Shown here: positions 24,085 to 44,381 of the stretch, piece after piece
How the letters are laid out: each line of letters starts with the position of its first letter
Numbering within the stretch: position 1 is the first letter of the stretch
Assembly: GCA_000156115.1 (NCBI GenBank)
Contig: DS995276.1
Location: forward strand, 2,853,011 to 2,898,157
DNA: 45,147 nt
DNA from: Rhodobacteraceae bacterium HTCC2083
Lineage (GTDB): Bacteria > Pseudomonadota > Alphaproteobacteria > Rhodobacterales > Rhodobacteraceae
Direction of reading: 5' to 3'
Notes under the pieces: generated by a model
The model's input: the letters and a program-made list of their open reading frames with translations, nothing else
Told to the model about the DNA's origin: nothing
Database searches by the model: none
Translations under genes and position numbers: made by a program

Positions 24085-25113
24085 ATGAAACGTAGAACAC
24101 TGATGAAAACCAGCTTGGCCGCAGGCGTGCTGGCATTCGGCCTTGGTGCGACAGCCGCATTCGCGGAAACCGTCACATTGCGCATGTCCACATGGTTGCC
24201 ACCAAAGCACCACCACACAGCAACAACCCTGCCAGCATGGATCGCAGCTGTGGAAGAAGCATCCGGCGGCACGCTTAAGATCAAGATCGACCCAGCACCC
24301 ATCGCAAAGCCGCCAGGCCAGTACGACATCGTACGCGATGGCGCGGCGGATATGTCCTATCACGTTGTGGCCTACACGCCTGGCCCATTTGAGATCTTGC
24401 GCGGCGCAGAGCTGCCGTTCTTGTCCCCAAGCGCGGAGGTCGGATCTCAGGCGGCTTATGACTGGTACGACCGTAACATCGGTTTCGACAAAGAATTTAA
24501 AGATGTCAAAATCATCACGATCTTCGTGCATGGTCCGGGCGCTATCCACTCCAAAGAGCCAATCAACTCTCTTGAAGACCTCGCAGGCGTAAAGCTACGC
24601 GTTGGTGGCGGTGGTGTGCGTATGGGTGAAGCACTTGGTGCGACGCCAGTGGCTTTACCCGCGACGCAAGCCTATGAAGCAATCCAAAAGGGTGTTGCCG
24701 AGGGTGCTATGTTCCCCTTCGAATCCATCGGCGGTTTCCGTTTGGGTGAGCTGGTGAACTATCACCTCGAAATCCCAGGTGGTCTTTATACGACTCCCTT
24801 CGCGGTCATGATGAACCCTGCGAAATTCGACGCACTCTCTGATGAGCATAAGAAAGTGCTGACAGATCTTGGTGGTGTTGCGGGCGCGAAAATCTTTGGT
24901 AAAGGCTGGGATGACGCGGACGCGGTTGGCCGTAAACTTGCAGAAGAGCAAGACGGCGTTTTTTCCAAGCTTGAGGGTGAAGAGCTTCAACGTTGGGACG
25001 AAAAGATCGCCTTCATGAACGATGCGTGGATCGAGAAAGCAAACGCAGCCGGCCTTGACGGTGCCGCGCTTCTTGAAGACCTCAAAGCGACAGTTGCAAA
25101 ATACGCCAACTAA
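24085..25113 (+). CDS. dctP: TRAP transporter substrate-binding protein, DctP
   Basis: A 342-residue periplasmic receptor with a signal peptide (SLAAGVLAFGLGATAAFAE). Family marks include MSTWLPPKH, a DIVRDGAADMSYH segment and the conserved arginine in GVKLRVGGGG that binds the ligand carboxylate. A strong GGGAGG ribosome site precedes the ATG. It starts a dctPQM operon that continues into a flavin monooxygenase gene, which points to an aromatic or other organic acid as the ligand. The specific ligand is unknown. Confidence 0.92.
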   Translation: MKRRTLMKTSLAAGVLAFGLGATAAFAETVTLRMSTWLPPKHHHTATTLPAWIAAVEEASGGTLKIKIDPAPIAKPPGQYDIVRDGAADMSYHVVAYTPGPFEILRGAELPFLSPSAEVGSQAAYDWYDRNIGFDKEFKDVKIITIFVHGPGAIHSKEPINSLEDLAGVKLRVGGGGVRMGEALGATPVALPATQAYEAIQKGVAEGAMFPFESIGGFRLGELVNYHLEIPGGLYTTPFAVMMNPAKFDALSDEHKKVLTDLGGVAGAKIFGKGWDDADAVGRKLAEEQDGVFSKLEGEELQRWDEKIAFMNDAWIEKANAAGLDGAALLEDLKATVAKYAN

Positions 25114-25127
25114 TCGCTCACGATACA

Positions 25128-25164
25128 AGTGGTGCCGGATGTGATCTGGCGCCGCTCTTTTTTT
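25128..25164 (+). terminator. Rho-independent (attenuating) terminator between dctP and dctQ
   Basis: A 9-bp stem agtggtgcc/ggcgccgct (two G-U pairs) is followed directly by c and eight T residues. It stands 15 bases after the dctP stop. Partial termination here would make more binding protein than membrane subunits. Confidence 0.8.
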
Positions 25165-25182
25165 GCTTTAGGGGCGTCTCGC

Positions 25183-25686
25183 GTGGAAAACCTTCTAAAA
25201 TCGCTTTCCAAAGCGCTGGCGAGCTTCGCTTGTATCGTGCTTTTGGCTGTGATGCTGATCACCTTCGTCGATGTTGTAGGGCGCTATTTCTTTAATTCAC
25301 CCATCACCTTTGCGGTTGAGATGATCCAGCTTGGCATGGGGCTTTTGGTGCTCTTTGGTCTTGCGATCACGACACTAGATCGCGGACACATCGCCGTTGA
25401 CGTCCTCGACACCGTCGTTCCCAAATCCGTGCAACGCATTTTCGCAATGCTCGCCGCCCTGAGCGCTGTGGTGTTCATCACGCTCATCGCGTGGCGGCTT
25501 TGGGATCGCGGTATCAAATTTTATGAAGATGGCCTTGCCACCGACGTTCTTTTCCTACCTGTTTGGCCTGTCGTGATACTGATGGCAGTCGCCGCTAGCG
25601 TGGCCGCCTTCATCGCCCTCGTGCAGTTCTTTATCCCCTCTATTCAAGGCGACACACACCCGCTCGCCCCAGATTTGGAAGACTGA
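25183..25686 (+). CDS. dctQ: TRAP transporter small permease, DctQ
   Basis: The small four-helix subunit of the TRAP carrier (about 167 residues). Hydrophobic segments begin at ALASFACIVLLAVMLITFVDVVGRYFF, which is the family hallmark. The frame is open back to GTG 25129, but that start lies inside the terminator stem; I therefore prefer GTG 25183 (VENLLKSLSK), which has a purine-rich AGGGG element a few bases upstream. The stop overlaps the dctM start as TGATG. Confidence 0.85.
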   Translation: MENLLKSLSKALASFACIVLLAVMLITFVDVVGRYFFNSPITFAVEMIQLGMGLLVLFGLAITTLDRGHIAVDVLDTVVPKSVQRIFAMLAALSAVVFITLIAWRLWDRGIKFYEDGLATDVLFLPVWPVVILMAVAASVAAFIALVQFFIPSIQGDTHPLAPDLED

Positions 25687-26996
25687 TGGACCCGATTACA
25701 ATTGGCACGCTGACGTTCGTCATTCTCTTTTTCATGCTTATTCTCACCGTCCCCATAGGCTTTGCCATGGGGATTTGCGGCCTTGCGGGCATGTCGATGA
25801 TTATCGGCTTTGGCCCCTCTCTCTCGCTCTTTGGCACAACGGTTTATGAAACCACTGTGACCTACGATCTTTCCATCGTGCCGCTTTTTGTCCTGATGGG
25901 TGCCGTTGCTGCCCGGTCTGGGTTGAGCCAGGAGCTTTATGGTGCTTTTAACGCGTGGTTCGGGGCGTTCAGGGGCGGACTGGCGCTTGCAACTGTCGGC
26001 GCATGTGGTGCGTTCGCTGCAATCTGCGGATCATCGGTTGCCACAGCAGCGACCATGTCAAAAGTCGCGCTGCCCGAGATGAAGAGATACAACTACGATG
26101 AAAGCCTCGCCACTGGGTCGGTTGCAGCAGGGGGGATCATCGGCATTCTTATTCCGCCGTCTGTCGTGCTGGTGTTGTACGGTGTTCTGACGGAAACCTC
26201 GATCGGGGACCTGTTCATCGCAGGCTTCCTGCCGGGGGTGCTGACCATCGTGGGCTTCATGCTTGTCGTTGTGGTGATGACGCGGATTTATCCCACAATC
26301 GGCCCCGCAGGTGAACAGGCAACCCTCGCTGAAAAGTTTACTGCATTGGGCCGGACATGGGCCATCATCCTGCTTTTTGCCCTGGTGATCGGCGGCATCT
26401 ATTTTGGTGTTTTCACCCCGACCGAGGCTGCGGGCATCGGCGCTGTTGGCGCGTTCGTTATATCAGCCTTGCGGGGTCGTTTGACATTCACCAACATCCG
26501 CGAGGCGCTGATGGAAACCGTCACCACGACGGCGATGATTTTCACCATTCTGATTGGGGCACTCACCCTTAACAACCTCATGGTTTTTTCCGGGATTGCG
26601 GGCGCTTTGTCGGGATTTGTCTCGGGTCTTGACATGCACCCAATGGCTGTGATGGCTGTCATCTTGTTGATCTACTTGGTTATGGGCTGTTTTCTCGATG
26701 CGCTGGCGATGATTCTGCTGACGGTGCCGATCTTCTTTCCGATCATCACAAACCTTGGTTTTGATCCCATCTGGTTCGGCATTATTGTGGTAATGGTGGT
26801 AGAATTGGGCCTGATTACCCCACCAATCGGCATGAACGTTTTTGTCATCAAAGGCATGGCTCCGGATGTCAGGCTGTCTTCGATCTACAAAGGGGTTATC
26901 CCGTTTGTGATCGCGCAATTGGTTCTGATTGTGCTGGTCTTTTTCATTCCTGATATTGCGCTATGGCTGCCAGAGACAGCGCGCGCGTTCCGCTAA
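25686..26996 (+). CDS. dctM: TRAP transporter large permease, DctM
   Basis: A 436-residue, about 12-helix carrier subunit driven by the sodium or proton gradient. Typical segments are LSIVPLFVLMGAVAARSG, CGAFAAICGSSVATAATMSK, GGIIGILIPPSVVLVLYG and LGLITPPIGMNVFVIKG. It overlaps dctQ by one base and is followed 35 bases later by the monooxygenase gene. It appears intact. Confidence 0.93.
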   Translation: MDPITIGTLTFVILFFMLILTVPIGFAMGICGLAGMSMIIGFGPSLSLFGTTVYETTVTYDLSIVPLFVLMGAVAARSGLSQELYGAFNAWFGAFRGGLALATVGACGAFAAICGSSVATAATMSKVALPEMKRYNYDESLATGSVAAGGIIGILIPPSVVLVLYGVLTETSIGDLFIAGFLPGVLTIVGFMLVVVVMTRIYPTIGPAGEQATLAEKFTALGRTWAIILLFALVIGGIYFGVFTPTEAAGIGAVGAFVISALRGRLTFTNIREALMETVTTTAMIFTILIGALTLNNLMVFSGIAGALSGFVSGLDMHPMAVMAVILLIYLVMGCFLDALAMILLTVPIFFPIITNLGFDPIWFGIIVVMVVELGLITPPIGMNVFVIKGMAPDVRLSSIYKGVIPFVIAQLVLIVLVFFIPDIALWLPETARAFR

Positions 26997-27031
26997 CTGC
27001 GCGGCGCGCTTTGGGAGAAAGGGCCAAACAA

Positions 27032-28279
27032 ATGACTGTTCTTATTGCGGGTGGTGGAATTGCAGGTCTGACTTTGGGGCTGACGCTGCATCAGATCAGC
27101 ATCCCGTTCCATATCTTTGAGACCACACGTGCGCCAAAACCACTTGGGGTCGGGATAAACTTGCAACCCCCCGCAGTGCGTGAACTCTTTGCGCTTGGGC
27201 TTGAAGATATGCTGGATGAGGTCGGAATTCAGACGCGGGACTATGGGTTCTACACACGAACCGGACAGGAGATCTGGACCGAGCCGCGCGGCTGCCATGC
27301 GGGATACAATTGGCCGCAATATTCGGTACATCGGGGCCGGTTGCAGATGGCGCTTCTGGATGCACTGCGTACGCGATGTGGCGACAGCTGCATCACCTTT
27401 GGTGCCAGAGTGCGCAGGTATGAAACCAGGTGCGATCGTGTGACGGTTCACTATGAAGTGCAAGGTAGCGATAAGACCGCTTCAGCAGACATGCTCATCG
27501 GCGCGGATGGCATTCATTCCGGCGTCCGTGCACAGATGTATCCAACCGAAGGGCCCCCAGTTTGGGGCGGCGCGATCATGTGGCGCGGCACATCCCTTGC
27601 CAAACCATTTTTGACTGGCCAGTCAATGATCCTTGCTGGGAACAACACGCAACGCTTCGTCAGTTACCCGATTTCTGCGCCAGATGGGGTAACGGGCCTT
27701 TCTCAGATAAACTGGATTGCAGAAAAGACGGTCGACCCCACAACACATTTCGAGAAAGAGGATTGGAACCGCCGCGTTGACGTAAATCAGTTTGCCAGTG
27801 ATTTCTCGGATTGGGATTTCGGCTGGATCTACGTCCCGAGCCTGATCGCTGCTGCAACAGAGGTGTTCGAGTATCCGATGGTAGACCGCGAACCTGTCCC
27901 ACGTTGGACAGATGGCCCTGTCGTTTTGATTGGTGATGCGGCTCACGCAACATATCCGGTCGGATCAAGTGGTGCTACACAAGCCATTCTAGACACCCGT
28001 ATTCTGGCGGCTGAACTACGCGGCCATGGCCTCGGGAGTGCTGCGGCAAGTGCTTTCGAAGCGCGCGTTCTCCCCATGGCCAATAGGGTCACGTTGGGCA
28101 ACCGCGGCAATGGGGGGCCTGACGCAATCATGCAAATCGCAGAGGACCGCTGCAAAGGCGACTTTACCGTTCTTGATCGTGCCTTGCCCTACGACGAAAG
28201 AGCGGCTCATTCTGCTTCGTTCAAAAAGCTAGCTGGGTTGAGCTTAGAGGCGACAAACAACGCACCCGCTCTTTTGTAA
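27032..28279 (+). CDS. FAD-dependent aromatic-type monooxygenase
   Basis: A 415-residue group A flavoprotein hydroxylase. It has the dinucleotide fold GGGIAGLTLGL, the DG motif ADMLIGADGIHSGVR and the GD motif VLIGDAAHATYPVGSSGATQAI that closes over the FAD. I start at ATG 27032 because MTVLIAGGG is the natural beginning; the longer frame from 26963 would overlap dctM. It belongs to the salicylate/3-hydroxybenzoate/PhzS-like clade, which hydroxylates aromatic rings with NAD(P)H. Its place after dctPQM suggests that it acts on the compound imported by that carrier. A probable P450 gene began 50 bases downstream. Confidence 0.87.
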   Translation: MTVLIAGGGIAGLTLGLTLHQISIPFHIFETTRAPKPLGVGINLQPPAVRELFALGLEDMLDEVGIQTRDYGFYTRTGQEIWTEPRGCHAGYNWPQYSVHRGRLQMALLDALRTRCGDSCITFGARVRRYETRCDRVTVHYEVQGSDKTASADMLIGADGIHSGVRAQMYPTEGPPVWGGAIMWRGTSLAKPFLTGQSMILAGNNTQRFVSYPISAPDGVTGLSQINWIAEKTVDPTTHFEKEDWNRRVDVNQFASDFSDWDFGWIYVPSLIAAATEVFEYPMVDREPVPRWTDGPVVLIGDAAHATYPVGSSGATQAILDTRILAAELRGHGLGSAAASAFEARVLPMANRVTLGNRGNGGPDAIMQIAEDRCKGDFTVLDRALPYDERAAHSASFKKLAGLSLEATNNAPALL

Positions 28280-28428: not shown

Positions 28429-29246
28429 GGTCTTGTCAGAAGAAAGCTGCTTGAGACGGGCAGGGTGGTCTCGTAGCGTTTGAGGATGACAAAACGCTCC
28501 CCATTTCGCTACTTCAAAACCAGTCCTGAGATCATTCGCCTGGCTGTTATGCTCTACGTCCGATTTCCGCTCTCGCTACGAAACGTTGAGGACCTGCTGC
28601 ACGAACGCGGCATCGAGATCAGCCATGAGACGGTCCGGTTCTGGTGGAACAGATTTGGACCGATGTTTGCAGCCGACATCCGCAGAAAACGGGTTCAGCA
28701 GATGCGCGCATACTCGAACTGGCAGTGGCATCTGGATGAGGTTTTTGTAAAGATTAACGGCGAGACGCACTACCTTTGGCGAGCCGTGGATCACGAGGGC
28801 GAGGTGCTGGAAAGCTATGTCACGAAGCGCCGGAATCGCAAAGCAGCATTGAAATTCCTCAGGAAAACCATGAAGTGTCACGGTCATCCTTATATCCTGG
28901 TGACTGACAAACTCCGGTCCTATGGCGCGGCAATGAAGGACATCGGCAACGAGCAGAGGCAGGAAACGGGCCGCTGGATTAACAACCGAGCTGAGAATTC
29001 GTACCTTCCGTCTCGACGACGAGAACGGGCTATGCAGCCGTTCCGCAGCATGCGAAGTTTACAGAAATTCGCCACCGTTCATGCCTTCGTCTGCAACCAT
29101 TTCAATCAGGAACGCGTACTCTACAGCAGAGACAATTTCAAGCTTAACCGCGCCGCCGCTCTTGCCGAGTGGCGCGATCTCGGTGCGGCGTAAATCGCAG
29201 CGTCACTGTCTTGGCAGAGGCGAGTTCGCATTCGTCTGACAGCACC
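28429..29246 (+). mobile_element. IS6-family insertion sequence, copy 3
   Basis: An 818-bp element with the same ends as copy 1 (ggtcttgtcagaagaaag on the left, ctgacagcacc on the right). It interrupts the P450-like frame on the left and abuts an inverted IS3 left-end relic on the right. The flanking bases do not form a target duplication, so the right flank was probably exchanged by recombination. Confidence 0.88.
28486..29193 (+). CDS. IS6-family transposase (copy 3)
   Basis: A 235-residue DDE transposase, collinear with copy 1 from MTKRSPFRYF. The central part (from about 28832 to 28970) is divergent at the DNA level: it reads RRNRKAALKFLRKTMKCHGHPYILVTDKLRSYG, whereas copies 1 and 2 read RRDRKVALKFLKKTMKRFG and so on. 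The flanks are nearly identical, so a patch from a related element appears to have been inserted by recombination. The catalytic D, D and E are kept (LDEVF, LVTDK, NRAEN). Confidence 0.88.
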   Translation: MTKRSPFRYFKTSPEIIRLAVMLYVRFPLSLRNVEDLLHERGIEISHETVRFWWNRFGPMFAADIRRKRVQQMRAYSNWQWHLDEVFVKINGETHYLWRAVDHEGEVLESYVTKRRNRKAALKFLRKTMKCHGHPYILVTDKLRSYGAAMKDIGNEQRQETGRWINNRAENSYLPSRRRERAMQPFRSMRSLQKFATVHAFVCNHFNQERVLYSRDNFKLNRAAALAEWRDLGAA

Positions 29247-33690: not shown

Positions 33691-35193
33691 TTGAGTATAG
33701 AAATCGTCCCTGACAGCTGGAGAATGGATGCGGCGACTGTCGCGAGCGCGTTCAAGACAGCAGCGATCCGCGCGCCCGATGCAATTTATTGCAAAAGCGC
33801 GACTGGTTCGTTGACCTACGCCCAGGCGGCCGGCGCGATCCAATCGCTAGCGGATGAGTTGGGCGCGGACGTTCAGGGACGTTCTGCTGCGTTGATCTTG
33901 CCGAACTCAAAAGCGTTTTTGATTGCCTATTTCGCGGTTCTATTCGCGGGTGGGAAACCTGCGCTGATCAATCATGGGCATCCCGCCCCAACGATTGCCA
34001 AATTGTTAGGTAGTCTTGATGCGGCAGTTGTTCTGTCGGACCATGAGCAAGGTAAAGGCACAACACGCCTTTTGAATGATGACCTTTTGGGGGTGCTGGT
34101 AAAACCTGTCGATATGAATGGGTTGATCGACCCCAGCACTTCAGAGGACATTGCCGCGATCATGTATTCAGGTGGCACGACGGGCTTGCCGAAACAGGTT
34201 CCACATTCAAACGCTTCCATTATTGCCACTATGGAACGTGGCGATTGGGGCTGGCGTACGCGCGCTGATGAAGTCTGGCTACCTGTAGCGCCTTTTACGC
34301 ATATTTACGGGTTCCTAATGGGACTGACCAACCCGATCATGCAATCCGGTACAACTGTTATTCCAGAGCGATTTCAACCTGACTTGATCGTGGATATGTT
34401 AGAAACTGAAAAAGTCACCATTTTTGGCGGTGGGCCCCCCGCGATCTATCAAGCGGTGATGGCGTCCAGCAAATTTGCGGATGCCAAGTTTACTAACTTG
34501 CGCATATGCCCTGGCGGCGGCGCGCCGTTTCCGCTGGATGTGCATAAGCGCTGGGAAGCGGCGACAGGCCTCAAGATTTATGAGGGCTACGGCATGACCG
34601 AGATCGCCCCGATTTCGATCAACACTGACGAGCATGGCGTAAAACCGGGATCAGCAGGTAAGGCCGTCCCAGATACTTTGATCGAGATTGTCGATCTTGA
34701 AACAGGTGATACGGTGCTACCCACAAGCGAAGCGGGGGAAATTCGTGTCAAAGGCCCGCATATGATGACAGGTTACACTGGCAATCCAGAAGAAACTGCA
34801 ATCGCGCTACGACATGGGTTTGTCTACACTGGCGATATCGGAACACTGGACAATGAGGGGTTCCTGACGATCACGGATCGCAAAAAGAACGTGATCTTTG
34901 TGAGCGGATTTAATGTCTTCCCGCGCGAGGTTGAAGAAATGTTGCTGACCCATCCAGCCATATCTGGGTCTTGTGTTGTGGCGCGCGCCCATAAGCGGTC
35001 CGGTGAGGTGCCTGTTGCCTTTGTTACGTTGCGCTCAGATGTGGACGCGGCCAACATTATGGCTTTCTGCAAACACAACCTGATCGCTTATAAACTGCCT
35101 GAAGACGTGATCATCTTGCCAGAAATGCCGCTTACTCCGGCGGGTAAGGTTGATCGCACCGTTCTGCAATCCAGCCTGAAAGCACAGTCATGA
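33691..35193 (+). CDS. AMP-binding acyl-CoA ligase/synthetase
   Basis: A 500-residue member of the ANL superfamily that activates a carboxylic acid with ATP and couples it to CoA. Motifs are the P-loop MYSGGTTGLPKQV, YEGYGMTE, YTGDIG, DRKKNVIFVSGFNVFPREVE and the C-terminal catalytic lysine in PLTPAGKVDR. The TTG at 33691 gives the longest frame; ATG 33724 (MDAATVASAF) is the alternative. It is the first gene of a four-gene operon, overlapping the next gene as ATGA. The substrate is probably an aromatic or branched acid in view of the Rieske oxygenase, but this is inference. Confidence 0.87.
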   Translation: MSIEIVPDSWRMDAATVASAFKTAAIRAPDAIYCKSATGSLTYAQAAGAIQSLADELGADVQGRSAALILPNSKAFLIAYFAVLFAGGKPALINHGHPAPTIAKLLGSLDAAVVLSDHEQGKGTTRLLNDDLLGVLVKPVDMNGLIDPSTSEDIAAIMYSGGTTGLPKQVPHSNASIIATMERGDWGWRTRADEVWLPVAPFTHIYGFLMGLTNPIMQSGTTVIPERFQPDLIVDMLETEKVTIFGGGPPAIYQAVMASSKFADAKFTNLRICPGGGAPFPLDVHKRWEAATGLKIYEGYGMTEIAPISINTDEHGVKPGSAGKAVPDTLIEIVDLETGDTVLPTSEAGEIRVKGPHMMTGYTGNPEETAIALRHGFVYTGDIGTLDNEGFLTITDRKKNVIFVSGFNVFPREVEEMLLTHPAISGSCVVARAHKRSGEVPVAFVTLRSDVDAANIMAFCKHNLIAYKLPEDVIILPEMPLTPAGKVDRTVLQSSLKAQS

Positions 35194-36167
35194 ACGATAA
35201 AATTGATGCTCTTAAGTCCCGTATGGTGCTGCCTGCTATCGCCGCGCCGATGTTTCTGGTCTCAAACCCAGAGACCGTCATTGCGTCGTGTAAAGCGGGT
35301 GTCATGGGATCGTTTCCTGCCCCGAATGCTCGGACCACTGATGATTTGCGGGGCTGGTTAACCCATATCAACGACAGTGTTTGCCAAGACGACGCGCCTT
35401 GGGCGATGAACATGATTACGCATTCCAGCTACGGTCGGTTCGAAGGTGAAATTGCCTTGGTAGAGGAATTTCAACCTGATTTAGTGATCACTGCTTTAGG
35501 GGGACCGCACCGTGTTACGCAACAGGTCCATGCCTATGGCGGCCTTGTTTTTGCGGATGTGATTTCCCCGAAACTCGCACAAAAAGCTTTGGACAAGGGC
35601 GCGGATGGTTTGGTTTTGGTCTGCTCGGGTGCAGGTGGGCATACCGGTGAATTTGCAATGCTGCCGTTCGTCGAAGAGGTGCGCAGCTTTTTTGATGGAC
35701 CACTGATTGTTGGCGGCGGCATCGGCACGGGGCGCGCCGTTCGTGCGGTTGAAAATCTTGGTGTTGATTTTGCCTACCTTGGCACGCGTTTTCTTGCGGC
35801 GAATGAGACGATGATTAGCCAAGACTACCGCGAGATGGTTTGGCAAAGCGCGATGGAAGACCTGATCGCGTCGCGCGCCATTACAGGTGCTTTGGGCAAC
35901 TGGATGCGCGCGAGTGTCGAAGCGGCAGGTCTAACTCTTGAAGATATGAAAGAAACCGTCAAAATTGATTTCTCCGGCGATATGCACGATGCTCCGAGAG
36001 GGTGGAAACACGTCTGGAGTGCCGGGCAAGGTGTCGGCGGAATTACCAAGTCAGAGAGCATTGCTGACGTTGTTGCCGAATTGTCAGGCGAGTATGCACA
36101 GGCGGTTTTTCGGCAAAGCAAAGGTAGCCGATATGCGGCAGCGGACAAAAACGAAAGCGGAGCATAA
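35190..36167 (+). CDS. Nitronate monooxygenase-like flavoprotein (NMO/2-nitropropane dioxygenase family)
   Basis: A 325-residue FMN TIM-barrel protein. It has an N-terminal PAIAAPMFLVS, the SGAGGHTGEFAMLPF segment with the family histidine, and the phosphate-binding VGGGIGTGRAV...YLGTRFLA. Bacterial members oxidise nitronates, but others act as enoyl reductases or have unknown roles. Its ATG overlaps the ligase stop and the Rieske gene follows after three bases, so it is translationally coupled to both. In this setting it may act on a CoA-linked or oxygenated intermediate; the reaction is not predictable. Confidence 0.85.
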   Translation: MNDKIDALKSRMVLPAIAAPMFLVSNPETVIASCKAGVMGSFPAPNARTTDDLRGWLTHINDSVCQDDAPWAMNMITHSSYGRFEGEIALVEEFQPDLVITALGGPHRVTQQVHAYGGLVFADVISPKLAQKALDKGADGLVLVCSGAGGHTGEFAMLPFVEEVRSFFDGPLIVGGGIGTGRAVRAVENLGVDFAYLGTRFLAANETMISQDYREMVWQSAMEDLIASRAITGALGNWMRASVEAAGLTLEDMKETVKIDFSGDMHDAPRGWKHVWSAGQGVGGITKSESIADVVAELSGEYAQAVFRQSKGSRYAAADKNESGA

Positions 36168-36170
36168 ATT

Positions 36171-37325
36171 ATGAGCATCAGCATTGAAGAGGTCGAGATC
36201 GTCAAAACCATCTTGAAGCATACAGAAGACGGCACGACAGATATGCAGCCAGAGCTGATGCGCAATCCGGTGACGATCTATACTGATCCTGATGTGTTGA
36301 CCAAAGAGGTCGACGTATTGTTCCGTAAGTTCCCGATTATCATGGGACATTCCGAACAGCTCGATGGGCCTGCGTCGTACTTTACCAACGATGAATTAGG
36401 CGTGCCGATCCTGATCACTCGCAACAATGACGGTGTCGTCAAAGCCTTTATGAACGTCTGTCGTCACCGCGGCGCGCGCTTGACTGATAGCGAATGTGGC
36501 CATGCAAAAACCTTCTCCTGCCCCTATCACAAATGGACTTACGATCTGAACGGTGATTTGCGCGGCTTGCCCCAAGCGGCTGGGTTTGGCGACATTGACA
36601 AGAAAGATTTGGGCCTCGTCGAACTCCCTGCCTTTGAGCGTTTTGGCTTGATCTGGGTGCGTCCGTCCGTCAGCGATGAACCGCTTGCTTTTGACGCATG
36701 GATCGCGCCGATGGCTGAGCAACTTGGTGGGCTAGGCCTGGACACGCACACTGTCTTTAAAACTTGGTCGCTGGATCGCAAAATGAACTGGCATCTCGCA
36801 CTTGAGGGTTTTCAGGAATCTTATCACTTTTGCGGCGCACACGAACACACAGCCTGTTCCGCGTACCTTGATAATCAAAGCGTGTGGACGGACAACTACC
36901 CGCATGTGCGCCATTCCGTGCCGCTGCCAACGGTGATTGAGTTGAAAGACCAAGCACCAGAGGACTGGAACCCGCGCCCTTACTTTATGACGCAAAACTA
37001 CGTGTTCCCCTGCAATTATGTGCAGGTGATGACGGATCACGTCTACATTCATACGATCATTCCAACGGGCCAAGACACCTGCATTTTCAAATGCATGATG
37101 CTGATCGCCGAGCCGCCAAAAACCGAAAAAGCAGAACGCTATTGGCAGAAAAATTACGATGTTATTCGCACCGTCTTTGATGAGGACTTCGAGATAGGTG
37201 AAAACATCCAGAAAGGTTTGAACACTGGCGCAAATACAGAGTTTCTGTTTGGTCGCTACGAAATTGGTTTGCATCTTGGCACCAAAGCAATCCACGACGC
37301 GCTTGCCGGAAAGCTGACCGCGTAA
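36171..37325 (+). CDS. Rieske-type aromatic ring-hydroxylating oxygenase, alpha subunit
   Basis: A 384-residue terminal oxygenase. The Rieske 2Fe-2S ligands are C97-x-H99 (CRHRG) and C117-x2-H120 (CPYHKWTY). The mononuclear iron site is EGFQESYHFCGAHEHT with H219 and H224, with an aspartate likely in the DEDFEIGENIQKGL segment. It belongs to the single-subunit type, without a linked beta subunit in this window. It needs an electron supply; the only candidate in the operon is the flavin reductase-like protein downstream, and no ferredoxin or Rieske reductase gene is adjacent. The substrate may be aromatic or a quaternary amine, as in other members. Confidence 0.9.
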   Translation: MSISIEEVEIVKTILKHTEDGTTDMQPELMRNPVTIYTDPDVLTKEVDVLFRKFPIIMGHSEQLDGPASYFTNDELGVPILITRNNDGVVKAFMNVCRHRGARLTDSECGHAKTFSCPYHKWTYDLNGDLRGLPQAAGFGDIDKKDLGLVELPAFERFGLIWVRPSVSDEPLAFDAWIAPMAEQLGGLGLDTHTVFKTWSLDRKMNWHLALEGFQESYHFCGAHEHTACSAYLDNQSVWTDNYPHVRHSVPLPTVIELKDQAPEDWNPRPYFMTQNYVFPCNYVQVMTDHVYIHTIIPTGQDTCIFKCMMLIAEPPKTEKAERYWQKNYDVIRTVFDEDFEIGENIQKGLNTGANTEFLFGRYEIGLHLGTKAIHDALAGKLTA

Positions 37326-37344
37326 AAGTCGACGGAGACGACGT

Positions 37345-37998
37345 ATGCAATATGACCCTAGATCAGACAAATGCCCGCTGCCGTATTCGCCCTTTAAATC
37401 TTGCACAGTTCCCCGTCCTATTGGCTGGCTCAGCACAATTAGCCGTGATGGTGTGCCCAATCTTGCGCCCTATTCGCAGTGGCAAAACCTGACCTTTGAC
37501 CCGCCTATGGTGATGTTCGCGGCCAACCAATATTCATCCGGCAAGCGCAAACACACCGTCATCAATGCCGAGGAAACTGGATGGTTTGTTTGGAACATGG
37601 CGACGTACGAATTGCGAGAGGCGGTTAATTTGTCCGCGATGGAAGTCGCGGCAGACGTGGACGAATTCGTGCATGCAGGTGTCACTGCAACGTCTTGTGT
37701 TGATGCCCCGGGACCTCGGGTAACGGAAAGCCCTGCTCAGTTTGAATGCAAGTACCTGAGTACACACCGTTTGCGCGGCAGTTCAGAGCACGGCTGGGTC
37801 GATGTGGTCTACGGTGAAGTGGTGCGCATTCACGTAAAGGACGAAGTGATCACGCCTGAGGGCAAGTTGGATATCCCTAGCATTCGACCTTTGGCCCGTC
37901 TTGGCTATTACGATTACACTTCCGTCACCGAGACTTTTGATATGAAAATTCCCGGGCCGAATGGGATGACAAACGTTGGTCTTGAGGGCAAACAATAA
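37345..37998 (+). CDS. Flavin reductase-like (DIM6/NTAB, FMN-binding) protein
   Basis: A 217-residue FMN-binding split-barrel protein of the DIM6/NTAB family. Marks are PRPIGWLSTISRDGVPNLAPYS and an NLTFDPPMVMFAAN segment that binds FMN. A GGAG ribosome site precedes the ATG, 19 bases after the Rieske gene. It might supply reduced flavin or electrons to the NMO-like or Rieske partner, or be an enzyme with bound flavin. It ends the four-gene operon. Confidence 0.85.
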   Translation: MQYDPRSDKCPLPYSPFKSCTVPRPIGWLSTISRDGVPNLAPYSQWQNLTFDPPMVMFAANQYSSGKRKHTVINAEETGWFVWNMATYELREAVNLSAMEVAADVDEFVHAGVTATSCVDAPGPRVTESPAQFECKYLSTHRLRGSSEHGWVDVVYGEVVRIHVKDEVITPEGKLDIPSIRPLARLGYYDYTSVTETFDMKIPGPNGMTNVGLEGKQ

Positions 37999-38236: not shown

Positions 38237-38242
38237 ACACTT

Positions 38243-38554
38243 TCAAGTGCCCTTAGAGCCTCTCTTGCGTTCGTACTCATCTAAGTTGGCCTTCATCATA
38301 GCCTCGTGTTTTGCAGCCTGACGCATGAGGGCTATTCCCAAGATCCACCCTATAACTAAGGCACCAACGCCAAAAAGTCTCATATTACGTACTACCCAAT
38401 CAGGTTGACCTGCGCTTTGGTCTAAAGCTGCGCCAATAAAAAAGAACATAGAGATGAATGACATGAGAATGATCAGGAACATTCCGTAGCCCTTTTTGAA
38501 CTTCGGAAATACGGCAGCCAAGGCCACAATGATCGCCTTGATAACTATGTTCAT
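38243..38554 (-). CDS. Small hypothetical membrane protein
   Basis: A 103-residue protein with two clear hydrophobic segments (GMFLIILMSFISMFFFIGAAL and LFGVGALVIGWILGIALM) and a basic, charged tail (AMMKANLDEYERKRGSKGT). No family is recognised and the ribosome site is weak. It lies between two IS relics and is AT-richer than the adjacent catabolic genes. It could be an IS-region passenger; no function can be given. Confidence 0.5.
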   Translation of the reverse strand: MNIVIKAIIVALAAVFPKFKKGYGMFLIILMSFISMFFFIGAALDQSAGQPDWVVRNMRLFGVGALVIGWILGIALMRQAAKHEAMMKANLDEYERKRGSKGT

Positions 38555-38663
38555 GTCTTGTGGCCTACTGTTTGATTTGAACGCATAATAACTATTAGTC
38601 TCATCAGAGCGTCAATAACTGAACTCGAAGAACTTCCAAACTTAACACCCTACAGCACCACAC

Positions 38664-39100
38664 GGACCGCTGAACAAGCGTCAGCACGTTTGTGAAAACC
38701 TGTGAGCTAGCTGACAAAGTTTCATAATGACAGGATGGTGAAGGGTAGGGGAAAGAGGTAGGTAAGTTCGTGAGCGGTTAGAAGTCATATATGGTACTAA
38801 ATATTTTACAATTATGGTACTAGTTTACCTCGGCTTTATTAAATTTTTCGTTTATAATCAATCATTTAGATGCGCTACATGGCATCGAGTGAGTCCGTGT
38901 GGGGGCACCACTTAATCCTGAAATTATATTTATTTACAATAACATGAGACTTTCATGTATATTTTTATCCACCTAAATATACACCCTTTGTCTGTCGAGC
39001 TTTAGTATGATGTTTGATTTGGGCTAAAGTCTATGCCACGCGCGCCTGCACACGCGCGGCTGTGTGTCATTGGCGTGAGCCTGCGCTCTCGAAGCGGTCT
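38664..39100. repeat. Long dispersed repeat, copy 2, non-coding part
   Basis: Matches 23281-23689 in the same orientation through landmarks such as cacgtttgtgaaaacctgtg, ggcaccacttaatcctgaaa and aataacatgaga, up to ccacgcgcgcctgcacacgcgcgg. No coding sense is evident. Confidence 0.8.
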
Positions 39101-39358
39101 GCCTGATGAACTCCAAGCCTTTGTCGATCACTACAATCATCATCGCCACCACGAGAGCCTGAACAACGTCACACCCGCCGACGTCTACTTTGGCCGCGAT
39201 AAAGCCATCCTGCAACAAAGGGAAAGGATCAAACGAAGGACACTCGAAGCGCGACGCTTGCATCACAGCATGCGCGCCGCATAATGCAATCAACCGGATG
39301 GGCCGAACTCACTCTTAGTTTAAGACGCAATTGGTTCCAAAAACCCTGACGACGGACA
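39101..39358 (+). pseudogene. IS3-family transposase relic 3 (intact C-terminus)
   Basis: Reads GLPDELQAFVDHYNHHRHHE, then SLNNVTPADVYFGRDKAILQ and QRERIKRRTLEARRLHHSMR with a normal TAA; only the C-terminal part of OrfB is left. The right terminus gacgacggaca ends at 39358. Positions 39359-39600 hold an inverted repeat tgtgttga-N14-tcaacaca (39370-39399) and nothing else that I recognise. Confidence 0.8.
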
Positions 39359-39600: not shown

Positions 39601-40770
39601 TCAATAGGGAAGGCCCACATAATTCTCTGCCATCGCTTTTTGCGCGGCTTCATTTGTGCGTAGGAACTCGATTTCAGCAATCTGCATTTTCACATCAAAC
39701 TCTGTTTGATCGGGGAAGCTGTGCATGAGAGACGAGAACCACCAGCTGAACCGTTCTGTTTTCCAAACACGCGCGAGAGCCTTTTCTGAGTATGTGTCTA
39801 ACCCCTCGGGCGAACCATCTTCGTAGAATTGGCGCAACCCATTGTAGAGGTAATGGATATCCGACGCCGCTGTGTTCAACCCTTTCGCCCCCGTTGGTGG
39901 CACAATATGCGCAGCATCGCCGCAGAGGAACAATCGCCCCCAGCGCATGGGTTCTGTCACAAAAGAGCGAAGCGGCGCGATGGATTTCTCAATCGAAGGG
40001 CCGGTTATCAATTTATCCGCTTGCTCGCGTGGGATACGGCGCTTGAGCTCATCCCAGAACGCCTCGTCAGACCAATCATCGACCTTATCGTCAAGCGAGC
40101 ATTGAATGTAATACCGGCTCAGGTTTTCATTGCGCATCGAGCACAGCGCAAAACCGCGCTCGGACCTGGAATAGATGAGTTCATGGTTTACGGGCGGCGT
40201 TTTGGACAAGATGCCGAGCCAGCCAAACGGATAAACCTTCTCATACTCTTTGCGCACATCCGCAGGTATCGTTGGACGACTGACGCCATGAAACCCGTCA
40301 CACCCTGCGATATAGTCACACGCGATCCGACGCTCTTCGCCAGCGACCGTGTAGGTGATGAACGGCGCATCTGTGTCAGCACCGTTGATCACCACATCCT
40401 CGACGTTGAACTCAATCTTGCCATTCGCCGCTTCGCGCGCGGCGTAGAGATCGCGGGTCACTTCGGTCTGGCCGTAAACCGTCACATGATGCCCTGCATG
40501 TTTGGTAAAATCGACGCGGAACATCGTGTCGCCAAAGGACACCAGTGTGCCGTCATGCACAAACCCTTCCGCATCAAGCCGCTCCACAACGCCTGCTTCG
40601 CGCATTAGCGCAACGAAACCACGCTCTAACACCCCCGCACGAATGCGGGTTAGCACGTAGTCTTTTGTTTGACGCTCGAGAACGGTGCTGTCTATTCCGC
40701 GCTTGTGCAAAAGCTGGGACAGCAACAAACCAGACGGGCCACCGCCGATGATGCAGACTTGTGTTTTCAT
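39601..40770 (-). CDS. pobA: 4-hydroxybenzoate 3-monooxygenase
   Basis: A 389-residue FAD enzyme that converts 4-hydroxybenzoate to protocatechuate with NADPH. It matches PobA along its length: GGGPSGLLLSQLL (FAD), ACDYIAGCDGFHG (DG motif) and FLCGDAAHIVPPTGAKGLN (GD motif). The known active-site residues of the Pseudomonas enzyme (Y201, S212, R214, R220, Y222, Y385) are all present here as Y200, S211, R213, R219, Y221 and Y384, one position lower. It starts 12 bases after the stop of the fused reductive dehalogenase, so the two are one transcript. The coupling implies that the dehalogenase product is 4-hydroxybenzoate. Confidence 0.95.
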   Translation of the reverse strand: MKTQVCIIGGGPSGLLLSQLLHKRGIDSTVLERQTKDYVLTRIRAGVLERGFVALMREAGVVERLDAEGFVHDGTLVSFGDTMFRVDFTKHAGHHVTVYGQTEVTRDLYAAREAANGKIEFNVEDVVINGADTDAPFITYTVAGEERRIACDYIAGCDGFHGVSRPTIPADVRKEYEKVYPFGWLGILSKTPPVNHELIYSRSERGFALCSMRNENLSRYYIQCSLDDKVDDWSDEAFWDELKRRIPREQADKLITGPSIEKSIAPLRSFVTEPMRWGRLFLCGDAAHIVPPTGAKGLNTAASDIHYLYNGLRQFYEDGSPEGLDTYSEKALARVWKTERFSWWFSSLMHSFPDQTEFDVKMQIAEIEFLRTNEAAQKAMAENYVGLPY

Positions 40771-40782
40771 GGGCCGATGTCC

Positions 40783-43700
40783 TTAGAGGTCGATAACAAT
40801 ACTCCCGTCCGGCGTGGCGGCGCGCGACTGACAGGTGATAATTTCATTTTCACGTTGCTTGTTAGATAGCACGAAGTCGCGGTGTTCAACGTCGCCACTT
40901 TGAAGGCCACATTTACACACGCCACAAATCCCGTCAGAGCACTTCACATCCACAGGGATGCCGTTGGCGATCAGCACATCAGAAAGGTCTTCATCCGCGC
41001 GCACGCTCAGCTCTTTCCCAGATTTTGCCAGCGTCACAGTGAAGGGATAGTTCACATAGTCGGGTTGCTCAGGAACGGAGAAGTACTCCAGATGCCGCGC
41101 CTCTTCAGGGAAGCCTTGGCGCGCAGCGGCCTGCACGACGCCCTCCATGTAGCGATCAGGGCCGCATGTGTAGACGTGCCAGCCATCCTTGTAGCCGTTG
41201 AGCAACTTGTCGAGATCAGCGCGTGTCCCTTGGTCGGAGAAATGGAAGGTCACATGCTGCGCCCAGGGCATCGCCTTGAGATCTTCAACATAGCCTGCAC
41301 TTTCCATCTTGCTCGCGGAGTAATGTAGCTCAAAGGGTTTGCCCAAAGCGTGCAAACGATGCGCAAAAGCGATCATCGGGGTAATGCCGATACCGCCACC
41401 CATGAGGTAGGTCTTCGTCGCGTCCTCAACCAGATCAAAATGATTGATCGGTTTGGAGATGAAGACGCGGCGTCCTTCGTTAAAGATGCGGTGCATCATC
41501 AGGGATCCACCACGTCCTTCGTCCTCTCGCAGTACTCCGATCTGGTACTTTGACGTATCCGCAGGATCGCCTGACATGGAATATTGCCGCAAGTAATCAG
41601 GGGTCACAACCACATCCAAATGCCCACCCGCAGTCCAATCGGGCAGGGCAGAGCCGTCCCAAGCGGTGAACTCATACTTCGTCACATCAGGCGTCATCGC
41701 TTCGGCCTTGCTAATGCGCGCCATGATCACGGGGGCGTCAGTGAAGTCGGGACGTGTGTGGGAAAGTCCCTCAGTCTCGCCGCGCGCAAGACGCGCGCGA
41801 TACTCATCCGCACTGATCATATCTTGATAGGCTTTGATCCCCGCCTCTCGGTCCATCGCAAAGGGGTAGGGATAGGGCCAAGGTGTGAGGTAGGCAGGAT
41901 ACACTGCGAGCGTTTGATCCTCGTATTTCAGGTCCAGATCAGGATCGATGCCGCGTCGGTTCGCAGGTTCAGCAGGCTCTTTATAACCGCCATCCTCTTT
42001 CAGCTCTAAGTCCCACCACCACTTCTTCATCTCATTGAGACTGCCATGACCGAGCGTGTCATCCAGCTTGGCCAACACGGGCGCAGCCTTGGGCATATTC
42101 ATCGCGGCCCAGCGGAACGGCTTTTCTTTGAAGATGCCCTCAAGGTTCCAAGGGCAGGTCTTCATACACCGCCCACACATCGCGCCGCCCTCAGTCGTGA
42201 TGCGGTAAGTGGTGCATTTCTGGCTGTCGGATTTCCAAATCTCATACCCATTAAACATGCGTTTCGGACCCGCAGTGATCGCACCAGAAGGACATTCACG
42301 CGCGCATTTGTTGCAGCTCTCGCAAAAGTTTTGCAGGCCGAAATCAATCGGCTTGTCATGTGCCATCGGCATATCCGTGGTCACAACGCCTGACTTCAAA
42401 CGAGGCCCCAGCAGCGGGTTCAGAATAACCTCACCAATGCGGCTGACCTCGCCCAAACCAGAGAGCAACAAAAGCGGCGGCTGCAAGACCTCGCCATCCA
42501 TGACCGAATGCGCTTTGGCCATGTAGCCGAGCCTGCGGATTTGCTTGGCAATCACACCGCCCAAAAGCGAGAAGCGCAGGTAGGCGCGCATGGATTGCGC
42601 GACGCTGATCCAATCATCACCCGACGCCCCCTCCATCGTCTCATAGCCCTGATCAATGATCATCGAAATGGCTTGGTTATGCGGCGGCTCAAGCGGCGCA
42701 CCTGTGGCGTCGTGACTGTACCATGTCCAATCAGGGCAACGGCTGATGCCGACCGCATCGATGCCAAGAAAATAGGTCGCCGCTTTGACATTGGCGGCGT
42801 TTTGCACTGGATCGCTTGGCTTTTCAGCCACCTCGTTACTGGCACCATCTTGCAGCAAAACAAACGCGCCAAGTAAACGGCGCTGCGCAAAAGAGGCGGG
42901 GCTTTTGCGTGCATACCAACCGCCCGATGCGGCCTGTTGTTGCTTTTTGCCCATGTCACCAAATTGCGCGCGCGCGAACATATCCGCACGCTTGGGGACG
43001 CGCGCCACACGGTCCTCATCAATGTAGGTCGTCGGCGTGTCCACGCGTTTGAGCTTCTCAAAGGCATGCGCGCCGTCCACATAGCGGCGCTTGGCGTAAG
43101 GATCACGGTTCAGCGCGCTTTTTGACGTGCCTTTGCCAACCCACCACGCAGGGCCATTGGGTTGATCACTCCACGAAGCAAGGGGCGCATCCACGGCCAT
43201 TTCAAAATTGGTTGTGACGACGGCGATGCCGAACCCTTCGCCAATATAGGGCGCGAACAAGCGGCCCTTTTCGAGCGATGCAAGACCAGCAGCGACAGCG
43301 AGTTGATTGAGGTCAACGTCCGATGATGTCGCCGTATGTGCGCGCGCTGAATATCCCAATAGATGTAGGTATTCGGCCAAGATCACAGCCGTTTCCGTGC
43401 TGCGCAAAGCGGCGCGATGCGCTTGTGTTCCCATTATCCATTCAGAGCCTGGCTCATGCGCTTTCGGGTCGCGGTGATGTTCTACGAGCAGCACAATCGC
43501 ATGGGTGTGATCGTCGATGGGTTGCAGCGGTGCTTCAATCGACTCCTTCAAGGCGGCCATGATCTGATCAATGCCAGAGGCGAGTGTTTTGGTTTGTTTC
43601 GTGCGAATATCATGCGCAAGCCGGTCGATGTCGGGATTGCGCGTGGCCTGCGCCAAATGCGCGCTTTTTGGCAATTCACAAATACCGATCATCGACGTGT

Positions 43701-43989
43701 CTTGGAAATATCCAAACGCTTTCATGTGGTTGCTACGTTCTTGCGGATCGCTGGGCGTGGCGGCGGGCGTTGGGTTCACCACACCTTCGCGGATCGCATC
43801 CATCATCGCCTGATATTCGCCCATTGCATTCACTAGCGAATGCGGCGTTTCGAGATTGCGAAAATTTAGCGCTTTGAATGGAGGAACCGTTTGTAAGTTG
43901 GGCAAGCTATCGACACGTTTCAAACGCTCAAGCGGGTAGGGACCCATATGAAACGGACGGTCCTTGGTCGAGAAAAAGCGCATGCCCAT
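40783..43989 (-). CDS. Self-sufficient cytoplasmic reductive dehalogenase fused to flavin/2Fe-2S reductase (BhbA/NpRdhA type)
   Basis: A 1068-residue protein in three parts. Residues 1-about 380 repeat the fold of the next part in weak form. Residues about 390-620 form the cobalamin-binding dehalogenase core: candidate catalytic Tyr and Lys in WTWYSHD (Y424) and YMAKAHS (K492), and two 4Fe-4S motifs, C556-x2-C559-x2-C562-x3-C566P and C592-x12-C605-x2-C608-x3-C612P. Residues about 750-1068 form an oxygenase-type reductase: flavin motif RQYSM (801-805), NAD(P) motif GGGIGITPM (864-872), CGPDRYM (942-948) and a plant-type 2Fe-2S site (C1017, C1022, C1025, C1053). There is no Tat leader or membrane anchor partner, unlike respiratory enzymes. 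An AGGAG ribosome site precedes the ATG. With pobA next, the likely substrate is a bromo- or chloro-4-hydroxybenzoate. Confidence 0.92.
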   Translation of the reverse strand: MGMRFFSTKDRPFHMGPYPLERLKRVDSLPNLQTVPPFKALNFRNLETPHSLVNAMGEYQAMMDAIREGVVNPTPAATPSDPQERSNHMKAFGYFQDTSMIGICELPKSAHLAQATRNPDIDRLAHDIRTKQTKTLASGIDQIMAALKESIEAPLQPIDDHTHAIVLLVEHHRDPKAHEPGSEWIMGTQAHRAALRSTETAVILAEYLHLLGYSARAHTATSSDVDLNQLAVAAGLASLEKGRLFAPYIGEGFGIAVVTTNFEMAVDAPLASWSDQPNGPAWWVGKGTSKSALNRDPYAKRRYVDGAHAFEKLKRVDTPTTYIDEDRVARVPKRADMFARAQFGDMGKKQQQAASGGWYARKSPASFAQRRLLGAFVLLQDGASNEVAEKPSDPVQNAANVKAATYFLGIDAVGISRCPDWTWYSHDATGAPLEPPHNQAISMIIDQGYETMEGASGDDWISVAQSMRAYLRFSLLGGVIAKQIRRLGYMAKAHSVMDGEVLQPPLLLLSGLGEVSRIGEVILNPLLGPRLKSGVVTTDMPMAHDKPIDFGLQNFCESCNKCARECPSGAITAGPKRMFNGYEIWKSDSQKCTTYRITTEGGAMCGRCMKTCPWNLEGIFKEKPFRWAAMNMPKAAPVLAKLDDTLGHGSLNEMKKWWWDLELKEDGGYKEPAEPANRRGIDPDLDLKYEDQTLAVYPAYLTPWPYPYPFAMDREAGIKAYQDMISADEYRARLARGETEGLSHTRPDFTDAPVIMARISKAEAMTPDVTKYEFTAWDGSALPDWTAGGHLDVVVTPDYLRQYSMSGDPADTSKYQIGVLREDEGRGGSLMMHRIFNEGRRVFISKPINHFDLVEDATKTYLMGGGIGITPMIAFAHRLHALGKPFELHYSASKMESAGYVEDLKAMPWAQHVTFHFSDQGTRADLDKLLNGYKDGWHVYTCGPDRYMEGVVQAAARQGFPEEARHLEYFSVPEQPDYVNYPFTVTLAKSGKELSVRADEDLSDVLIANGIPVDVKCSDGICGVCKCGLQSGDVEHRDFVLSNKQRENEIITCQSRAATPDGSIVIDL

Positions 43990-44006: not shown

Positions 44007-44381
44007 TCAAGATATGCCCAGAAGGCCGAGGATATGATGCAAACCTGACCAAACAATTATGCCTGACAAAGCAGTTGTTATCAATGCAGGCAAGCCGTCT
44101 TTCCACGTATCCCAAATCAAGTGGCAGCCAATTGCGCCAATGGACGTTCCAAGGATTGCAAGCGCGCCGAGTGCTCCAAGCCACGAGGCTTGAAACCAAA
44201 TTGCTATTGCTCCGGATAATTCCAAGAGGCCAACAAATCGCATGATCTGACGGTTCAGCCCGTATTTGATGAACATACCAAGCTGGGTCTCGAAGATGAA
44301 CTTTTGCCAGGCGAAAATCTTGATCGAACTCGCAAACAGGAAGAAGGCCGACAAAAGGACAATAATGATTGTTTGGGTCAT
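44007..44381 (-). CDS. DoxX-like small membrane protein
   Basis: A 124-residue protein with four hydrophobic segments (IIIVLLSAFFLFASSIKIF, a LELSGAIAIWF segment, LGALGALAILGTSIGAIGC and LITTALSGIIVWSG) and the KFIFETQLGMF segment, as in DoxX-like proteins. The start at 44381 follows a dctM stub by 11 bases; a longer frame to 44648 would run through debris. It precedes the dehalogenase gene by 17 bases, so it belongs to the same operon. Its role there is unknown; it might help an uptake or redox step at the membrane. Confidence 0.78.
   Translation of the reverse strand: MTQTIIIVLLSAFFLFASSIKIFAWQKFIFETQLGMFIKYGLNRQIMRFVGLLELSGAIAIWFQASWLGALGALAILGTSIGAIGCHLIWDTWKDGLPALITTALSGIIVWSGLHHILGLLGIS

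Follow-up and report, generated by a model that had tools for sequence, protein, structure and literature searches.

The 45,147-nucleotide stretch of Rhodobacteraceae bacterium HTCC2083 DNA analysed here (the window) carries two consecutive genes on its minus strand: rdhA, which encodes a reductive dehalogenase (RdhA) fused to a reductase module, and pobA, which encodes a 4-hydroxybenzoate 3-monooxygenase (Table 1). The contig that contains the window accounts for 3.95 Mb of the 4.02-Mb genome, which falls in a genus group shared with Planktotalea frisia. A first-pass annotation had placed both genes at 39601-43989 with a 12-base gap, and the open reading frames (ORFs) bear this out. It had also described a B12-dependent RdhA core with two 4Fe-4S motifs, a complete FMN/NAD(P)/2Fe-2S reductase in the same protein and an intact pobA with key active-site residues. 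Each of these features was recovered by the family, structure and residue comparisons given below, and the placement in the RdhA family passed as well.

Architecture and active site of the two proteins

RdhA scores 217.8 bits against the reductive dehalogenase model TIGR02486 (cut-off 160.35; best stretch aa 438–649), and the Pfam families Fer4_16 and Fer2 also exceed their cut-offs. Structure-sequence matching aligned aa 160–734 (best stretch) with chain 6zxu of NpRdhA, the catabolic dehalogenase of Nitratireductor pacificus (E 4e-168), and aa 756–1067 with phthalate dioxygenase reductase (PDOR; 2pia, E 3e-48). The reductase motifs RQYS (801), GGGIGITP (864) and CSDGICGVC (1017) are all present. 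PF13486 gave no Pfam match to RdhA, even at E 0.1, and the sole PF13486 match in a search of the bacterium's own genome lies at a different locus. Within RdhA, aa 66–270 align with aa 379–548 (E 3e-15), at 66.6 bits against a maximum of 23.5 over 200 shuffles. A vestigial, duplicated half of the cobalamin domain is a described trait of catabolic RdhAs (PMC10463259), and the duplication in RdhA corresponds to this half. The N-terminus, MGMRFFSTKDRPFHMG, holds no Tat-like (twin-arginine translocation) arginine pair on direct reading. Assignment to the respiratory RdhAs was rejected on this ground, and RdhA is, by the Tat criterion, predicted to be cytoplasmic.

Aligned to 6zxu, NpRdhA residues F291, S422, M423, Y426, K488 and R552 correspond to F338, S466, M467, Y470, K532 and R596 of RdhA. 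At all six substrate-site positions the 93 full-length fused proteins aligned, the window's among them, agree without exception with one another and with NpRdhA, and the same six residues are listed as conserved in JtRdhA, the characterised fused enzyme of Jhaorihella thermophila (PMC10463259). Cysteines 556, 559, 562, 566, 592, 605, 608 and 612 are invariant in all 94 aligned rows, C592 being situated between the two 4Fe-4S motifs; cysteines 1017, 1022, 1025 and 1053 are invariant in the 93 rows with a reductase. These residues also bear on the idea that RdhA is an epoxyqueuosine-reductase-like (QueG-like) or otherwise non-dehalogenating relative. QueG shares its cobalamin class with RdhAs (PMC10463259), and the TIGR00276 model does match RdhA, but weakly (23 bits against a cut-off of 200). 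RdhA scores far above the TIGR02486 cut-off, however, matches NpRdhA very strongly and has kept the halophenol-site residues. On these family scores and residues the QueG-like assignment was rejected, and we regard it as extremely improbable.

PobA matches the equivalog model TIGR02360 with 684 bits (cut-off 538.7; positions 1–390) and aligns end to end with P-hydroxybenzoate hydroxylase (PHBH) structures (E 1e-154). The substrate and catalytic (flavin-site) residues of PHBH, whose numbering and roles we take to be Y201, S212, R214, Y222, P293, T294 and Y385, are all identical in PobA when aligned to the PHBH chain, with numbering one lower. On their spacing only, rdhA and pobA are probably co-transcribed.

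Table 1. Features of the rdhA–pobA locus, in window coordinates.
Feature	Position	Strand	Evidence
rdhA (1068-aa ORF)	40783..43989	minus	TIGR02486; NpRdhA and PDOR structure matches
Vestigial N-terminal duplicate of RdhA core, ~aa 1–300	43090..43989	minus	internal duplication; NpRdhA alignment
Cobalamin-binding core and 4Fe-4S region, ~aa 301–735	41785..43089	minus	6zxu alignment; TIGR02486
Y470 (equivalent to NpRdhA Y426, proton donor)	42580..42582	minus	alignment to NpRdhA
First 4Fe-4S motif CESCNKCAREC, aa 556–566	42292..42324	minus	Pfam; alignment
Second 4Fe-4S motif CGRCMKTC, aa 605–612	42154..42177	minus	Pfam; alignment
PDOR-type module, FMN/NAD(P)H/[2Fe-2S], aa 756–1068	40786..41724	minus	2pia; motifs; Fer2 at 986–1057
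12-base spacer	40771..40782	minus	rdhA stop overlaps TAAGGA, ribosome-binding-like sequence for pobA
pobA, 4-hydroxybenzoate 3-monooxygenase, 389 aa	39601..40770	minus	TIGR02360; PHBH structure alignment
DoxX-like membrane protein gene, directly upstream of rdhA	44007..44381	minus	PF13564
Transposase remnant (rve_3 C-terminal part), behind pobA	39033..39284	plus	Pfam

A predicted debromination route and its host genome

We consider it likely that rdhA and pobA make up a small operon with a catabolic function in an aerobic marine bacterium of the Planktotalea group, in which bromine or iodine would be removed from a 4-hydroxybenzoate-type phenol ahead of PobA and 4,5-cleavage. The chemistry, halogen range and substrate are proposed by analogy with characterised homologues. 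NAD(P)H would give hydride to FMN in the C-terminal module of RdhA, and electrons would pass from FMN through the [2Fe-2S] cluster and the two [4Fe-4S] clusters to cobalamin. An ortho-halogen (Br or I) would then be lost from the phenol, with bromine bound to cobalt as in JtRdhA, while Y470 and K532 would act as a proton donor dyad in which Y470 supplies the proton and K532 assists. The same analogy suggests that one NADPH would be used per debromination, in air. The 4-hydroxybenzoate released would be converted to protocatechuate by the co-encoded PobA, and protocatechuate would undergo 4,5-ring cleavage by enzymes encoded elsewhere in the genome. The predicted debromination of a bromo-4-hydroxybenzoate, followed by PobA, is well supported by sequence. 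Brominated phenolics are widespread as marine natural products, and to our knowledge few members of the fused dehalogenase family have been characterised. Both 3-bromo- and 3,5-dibromo-4-hydroxybenzoic acid appear in a table of a marine phenolics review (PMC7601137). The pairing with pobA would provide a concrete natural-substrate candidate for part of a large family, as well as a ready two-gene cassette.

A protocatechuate 4,5-cleavage cluster was found elsewhere in the genome, at C5:2.05 Mb. In it, ligA is above the cut-offs of its models, and a class III extradiol dioxygenase beta subunit (in the ligB position), ligK and 4-oxalomesaconate tautomerase are above theirs. A Gfo/Idh reductase occupies the ligC position, a PIG-L protein is also encoded, and an amidohydrolase in the ligI position falls below the cut-off of the only NCBIfam model that it matched. 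A search of the genome with TIGR02422 detected no protocatechuate 3,4-dioxygenase beta subunit (pcaH), although a very divergent enzyme could escape this single model; the beta-ketoadipate route was set aside on the same one-model result. Given the lig cluster and the lack of a pcaH match, protocatechuate would go through 4,5-cleavage, which the Comamonas bromoxynil pathway also uses (PMC10463259). The genome further contains cobN, a marker of cobalamin synthesis. Genes for cobalamin and for protocatechuate degradation, which the first-pass annotation had suggested looking for elsewhere in the genome, are thus found as cobN and the ligAB-containing cluster. Its proposal of an operon that feeds protocatechuate by dehalogenation agrees with gene order, domains, residues and pathway genes, with the amendments that the route onwards would be 4,5-cleavage and that substrate and flux are predictions.

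A second RdhA of 390 aa, without a reductase, is encoded at C5:3605083-3606252 (L001:991-2163). It exceeds the TIGR02486 cut-off with 173.2 bits and is about 30% identical to the core of the window RdhA. Over 382 residues it is 74% identical to an ORF of Roseobacter sp. MED193 that bears the exact motifs CDICTKCADACP and CAICMRVCP printed for Ros_A3X954, the 2,6-dibromophenol debrominase of that strain (PMC13101508); from the shared strain and motifs we infer that the MED193 ORF is Ros_A3X954. Close relatives of the second RdhA (64–84% identity) occur in 7 of 19 other genomes or records searched. Judging from these similarities, the genome is predicted to encode two catabolic RdhAs.

The rdhA–pobA pairing across genomes

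At E<=1e-200, 149 of the 394 sampled genomes of the window's family gave a match to the fused RdhA (a few of the matches being partial), as did five of the six genomes of its genus, one match being partial at a contig end and one split over two contigs. Near-whole-length matches were obtained in 9 of 385 genomes sampled from the class, own genome included; the class tally of 77/385 includes reductase-only and dehalogenase-only matches. Among 72,556 plasmid records, eight contain at least 80% of the fused RdhA. Homologues of BhbA, the fused enzyme of Comamonas sp. 7D-2, are described as mostly belonging to marine aerobic proteobacteria (Chen et al. 2013, as cited in PMC5316534), and the same statement is made for the Roseobacter clade (PMC13101508). 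On the Yoonia sp. SS1-5 plasmid (L118:8001-11208), tblastn matched rdhA over its full length but in two pieces, at a place where no gene is annotated; this is perhaps a frameshifted copy.

Pairing with pobA was scored in loci of named genomes, the best 80 of 231 relatives, so that the set leans to the window's nearest kin. The count is based on those 67 of the 80 in which the gene is full length and followed by 1,300 bases or more, flank lengths varying by locus. An intact, co-directional pobA lies directly behind rdhA in five of the 67 (L036 from P. frisia, L045, L090, L113 and L114; the L045 junction includes a stretch of N); the fetched flanks of the other 62 gave no PobA match at E 0.01. 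A wider set of 87 loci, which takes in plasmids, shorter contigs and the window itself, has pobA immediately behind rdhA in 6 cases. Neighbours were clustered as ORFs of at least 90 aa at 30% identity and 60% coverage, thresholds that undercount small or divergent neighbours such as MarR regulators; in this clustering no family other than pobA occupies the position just behind rdhA, in the same orientation, in more than two of the 87 loci. The spacer length is 12 bases for both the window and P. frisia, and 9 for L113 and L114. In pBHB and pOM-1, pobA or a pobA-like stretch lies a few genes from rdhA, and the L114 genome carries a second BhbA-like rdhA, 47.5% identical to that of the window and divergent from another pobA (L165:705-5605). 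A second, distant pobA of P. frisia (L153, G385:C90) has two in-frame stops. Direct rdhA–pobA adjacency is therefore uncommon, yet it is present in unrelated lineages; neither the adjacency nor its repeated origin was found described in the literature searched, the coverage of which excluded subscription papers.

Several observations weigh against a route from brominated 4-hydroxybenzoates through PobA. The absence of an adjacent pobA from 62 of 67 homologous loci suggests that other phenols may be substrates of the enzyme family. A further pobA in the genome, 77% identical to the rdhA-linked copy, means that the linked copy is not strictly needed. JtRdhA is as fast on 3-bromo-4-hydroxyphenylacetate as on 3,5-dibromo-4-hydroxybenzoate, its best substrate (99.3% of that rate; PMC10463259). 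The position of NpRdhA A419, in the second-halogen pocket, is V463 in the window, V in 88 of 93 proteins and S in BhbA; because the A419M exchange moved the relative preference of NpRdhA to a monobrominated substrate (PMC7565698), position 463 may matter, and JtRdhA is reported still to favour the dibromo acid over the monobromo acid (PMC10463259). In the sister genome G401 (L037:3375-4382) rdhA is intact and the junction is kept, but the PobA match ends after 27 residues; a copy of window 38237-38990 comes next, in inverted orientation, which reflects either a genuine rearrangement or a join made in metagenome assembly. In G400 and G402, two further genomes of the genus, only a short stretch follows rdhA, and no pobA was seen in it.

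The first three of these points would equally fit an RdhA whose main role is to detoxify or salvage other ortho-bromophenols, such as bromophenols or bromo-4-hydroxyphenylacetate, with pobA as an incidental neighbour, as would the observation that no neighbour family occurs in more than 11 of the 87 loci. However, unrelated lineages with unrelated PobAs show pobA immediately downstream. A rough Poisson estimate, taking 1–2 pobA per 4000 genes, predicts 0.02–0.03 such loci in 67, against the five seen (L113 and L114 being close kin). Chance neighbourhood was rejected because of the occurrence in unrelated lineages, and detoxification or salvage of other bromophenols as the main role seems to us rather unlikely.

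The linked PobA copies are scattered across a PobA tree of 21 rows, in which L154 forms a long branch and L152 is labelled unlinked, yet lies divergently beside the second BhbA-like rdhA of its genome. Approximately unbiased (AU) tests rejected common descent of the eight linked or near PobAs (p 1.5e-42) and of the six directly adjacent ones (p 1.9e-6), and also a single group of the window, P. frisia and L045 PobAs (p 0.015, this group having been chosen after the tree was seen). The window and P. frisia PobAs are sister to a roseobacter PobA group that includes the second copy of the window genome. Linkage is not clustered in this tree (6 changes versus 6.6 under shuffling, 203 of 500 shuffles being as low). 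The RdhA tree (97 rows) was built by a quick method without bootstrap and with long-branch warnings, leaving out rows with fewer than 1050 aligned residues, four reductase-less outgroups excepted; the label 'other' covers L038, where the contig stops just after rdhA, and L037, where pobA is truncated. In the RdhA tree the six rows with linkage call for five changes, of which starred branches force at least four and some may represent losses; the clustering of linkage is only weak (5 changes versus 5.9 on average after shuffling, 40 of 500 shuffles being no higher). On these trees, the pairing of the two genes seems to have had more than one origin. A broader proposal, on which we are evenly divided, is that an rdhA widespread in marine Alphaproteobacteria was joined independently, several times, to a local pobA. 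The pair would then be a convergently assembled module, brominated 4-hydroxybenzoates would be the natural substrate of at least these enzymes, and together with the second, short debrominase relative they would make up a dedicated aerobic marine bromophenolic route, with a bromophenol branch and a bromohydroxybenzoate branch.

Between L133, the locus around the pair in the window's genome, and the 15-kb P. frisia locus (L036), nothing beyond the exact two-gene block is shared at E 1e-5 in the flanks compared, so that the two genes behave like a block that relocates together. The same lack of flanking homology, the transposase remnant behind pobA and the truncated pobA in the contig of the sister genome could instead be read as signs of a decaying or non-functional relic left by insertion sequence (IS) activity. 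Both frames are nevertheless open and full length with their key residues kept, and protein identities of 89% (RdhA) and 95% (PobA) to the P. frisia copies suggest that both proteins have been maintained; we consider decay very unlikely, and a functional two-gene unit remains our preferred interpretation.

Upstream of rdhA, the DoxX-like ORF is listed from 44648, with a likely start at the ATG at 44381 (MTQTIII). As a candidate conserved partner it was set aside, since none of the other loci compared gave a DoxX match at E 1e-20; the only blastn match into the 3' end of the gene, upstream of rdhA, is in L037. An Rfam search around the locus (L133) gave 0 matches, and a promoter and terminator scan stayed at chance level (3 promoter-like sequences versus 3.9 expected, 7 terminator-like versus 6.2 expected). 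An IS-rich setting had been noted in the first-pass annotation, in line with the Pfam transposase matches in the window: two IS240-type transposases (9285-10004 and 28480-29193), one IS3-like transposase (11651-12391) and one remnant (39033-39284). Elsewhere on the plus strand of the window, genes for an acyl-CoA ligase, a nitronate-monooxygenase/FabK-like protein, a Rieske oxygenase alpha subunit and a flavin reductase follow in series as a putative catabolic operon (33691-37998), and TRAP (tripartite ATP-independent periplasmic) transporter genes (DctP, a 185-aa ORF and DctM) precede a FAD_binding_3 monooxygenase (24085-28279). Past the right end of the window, L133:8976-18199 holds an aromatic (lignin-type) catabolic cluster with a LysR-type regulator, a branched-chain-amino-acid-like ABC (ATP-binding cassette) transporter, an aldehyde dehydrogenase and a coniferyl-alcohol dehydrogenase.

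Comparison with characterised systems

The kind of enzyme, its air tolerance, its use of NADPH and its place before a hydroxylase and a protocatechuate dioxygenase are already in print. JtRdhA is a marine fused enzyme whose expression and characterisation were published in 2023, with NADPH-driven, oxygen-tolerant debromination and deiodination; it turns over bromo- and iodophenols, while chloro analogues inhibit it without turnover (PMC10463259). Compared by its published description, it shares with the window RdhA the full-length RdhA-PDOR fusion and the reported key residues. A term search of PMC10463259 found no description of its gene neighbourhood. The 'halogenated' substrates of the first-pass annotation are accordingly to be narrowed to bromo and iodo compounds, chloro compounds being only inhibitory for JtRdhA.

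BhbA is encoded on plasmid pBHB (NC_021077) and is likewise a full-length fusion, 49.6% identical to the window RdhA over its whole length. Its gene is clustered with those for protocatechuate 4,5-dioxygenase, a partial match to pobA lies close by, and the published route runs from a nitrilase through BhbA and a monooxygenase to a protocatechuate dioxygenase (PMC5316534). BhbA differs in belonging to a conjugative plasmid of a soil bacterium and to a herbicide pathway with a nitrilase, in having no immediate rdhA–pobA pair, and in its serine at the A419 position, where the window has valine. NpRdhA (PDB 4ras, 6zxu) resembles RdhA in its catabolic core and substrate-site residues, with 45% identity (259 of 571 aligned residues), but has no reductase module and requires external electron donors (PMC10463259). 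BhbA and NpRdhA had both been named as relatives in the first-pass annotation; of the two only BhbA is fused, and BhbA and JtRdhA are the proper comparators.

Ros_A3X954 is also a roseobacter catabolic debrominase, with a relative in the window's own genome outside the window, but it is a short RdhA without a reductase module. In Planktotalea frisia SH6-1, of the same genus group, rdhA and pobA have the high identities and the spacing given above, and the flanking genes are unrelated to those of the window in the stretches compared.

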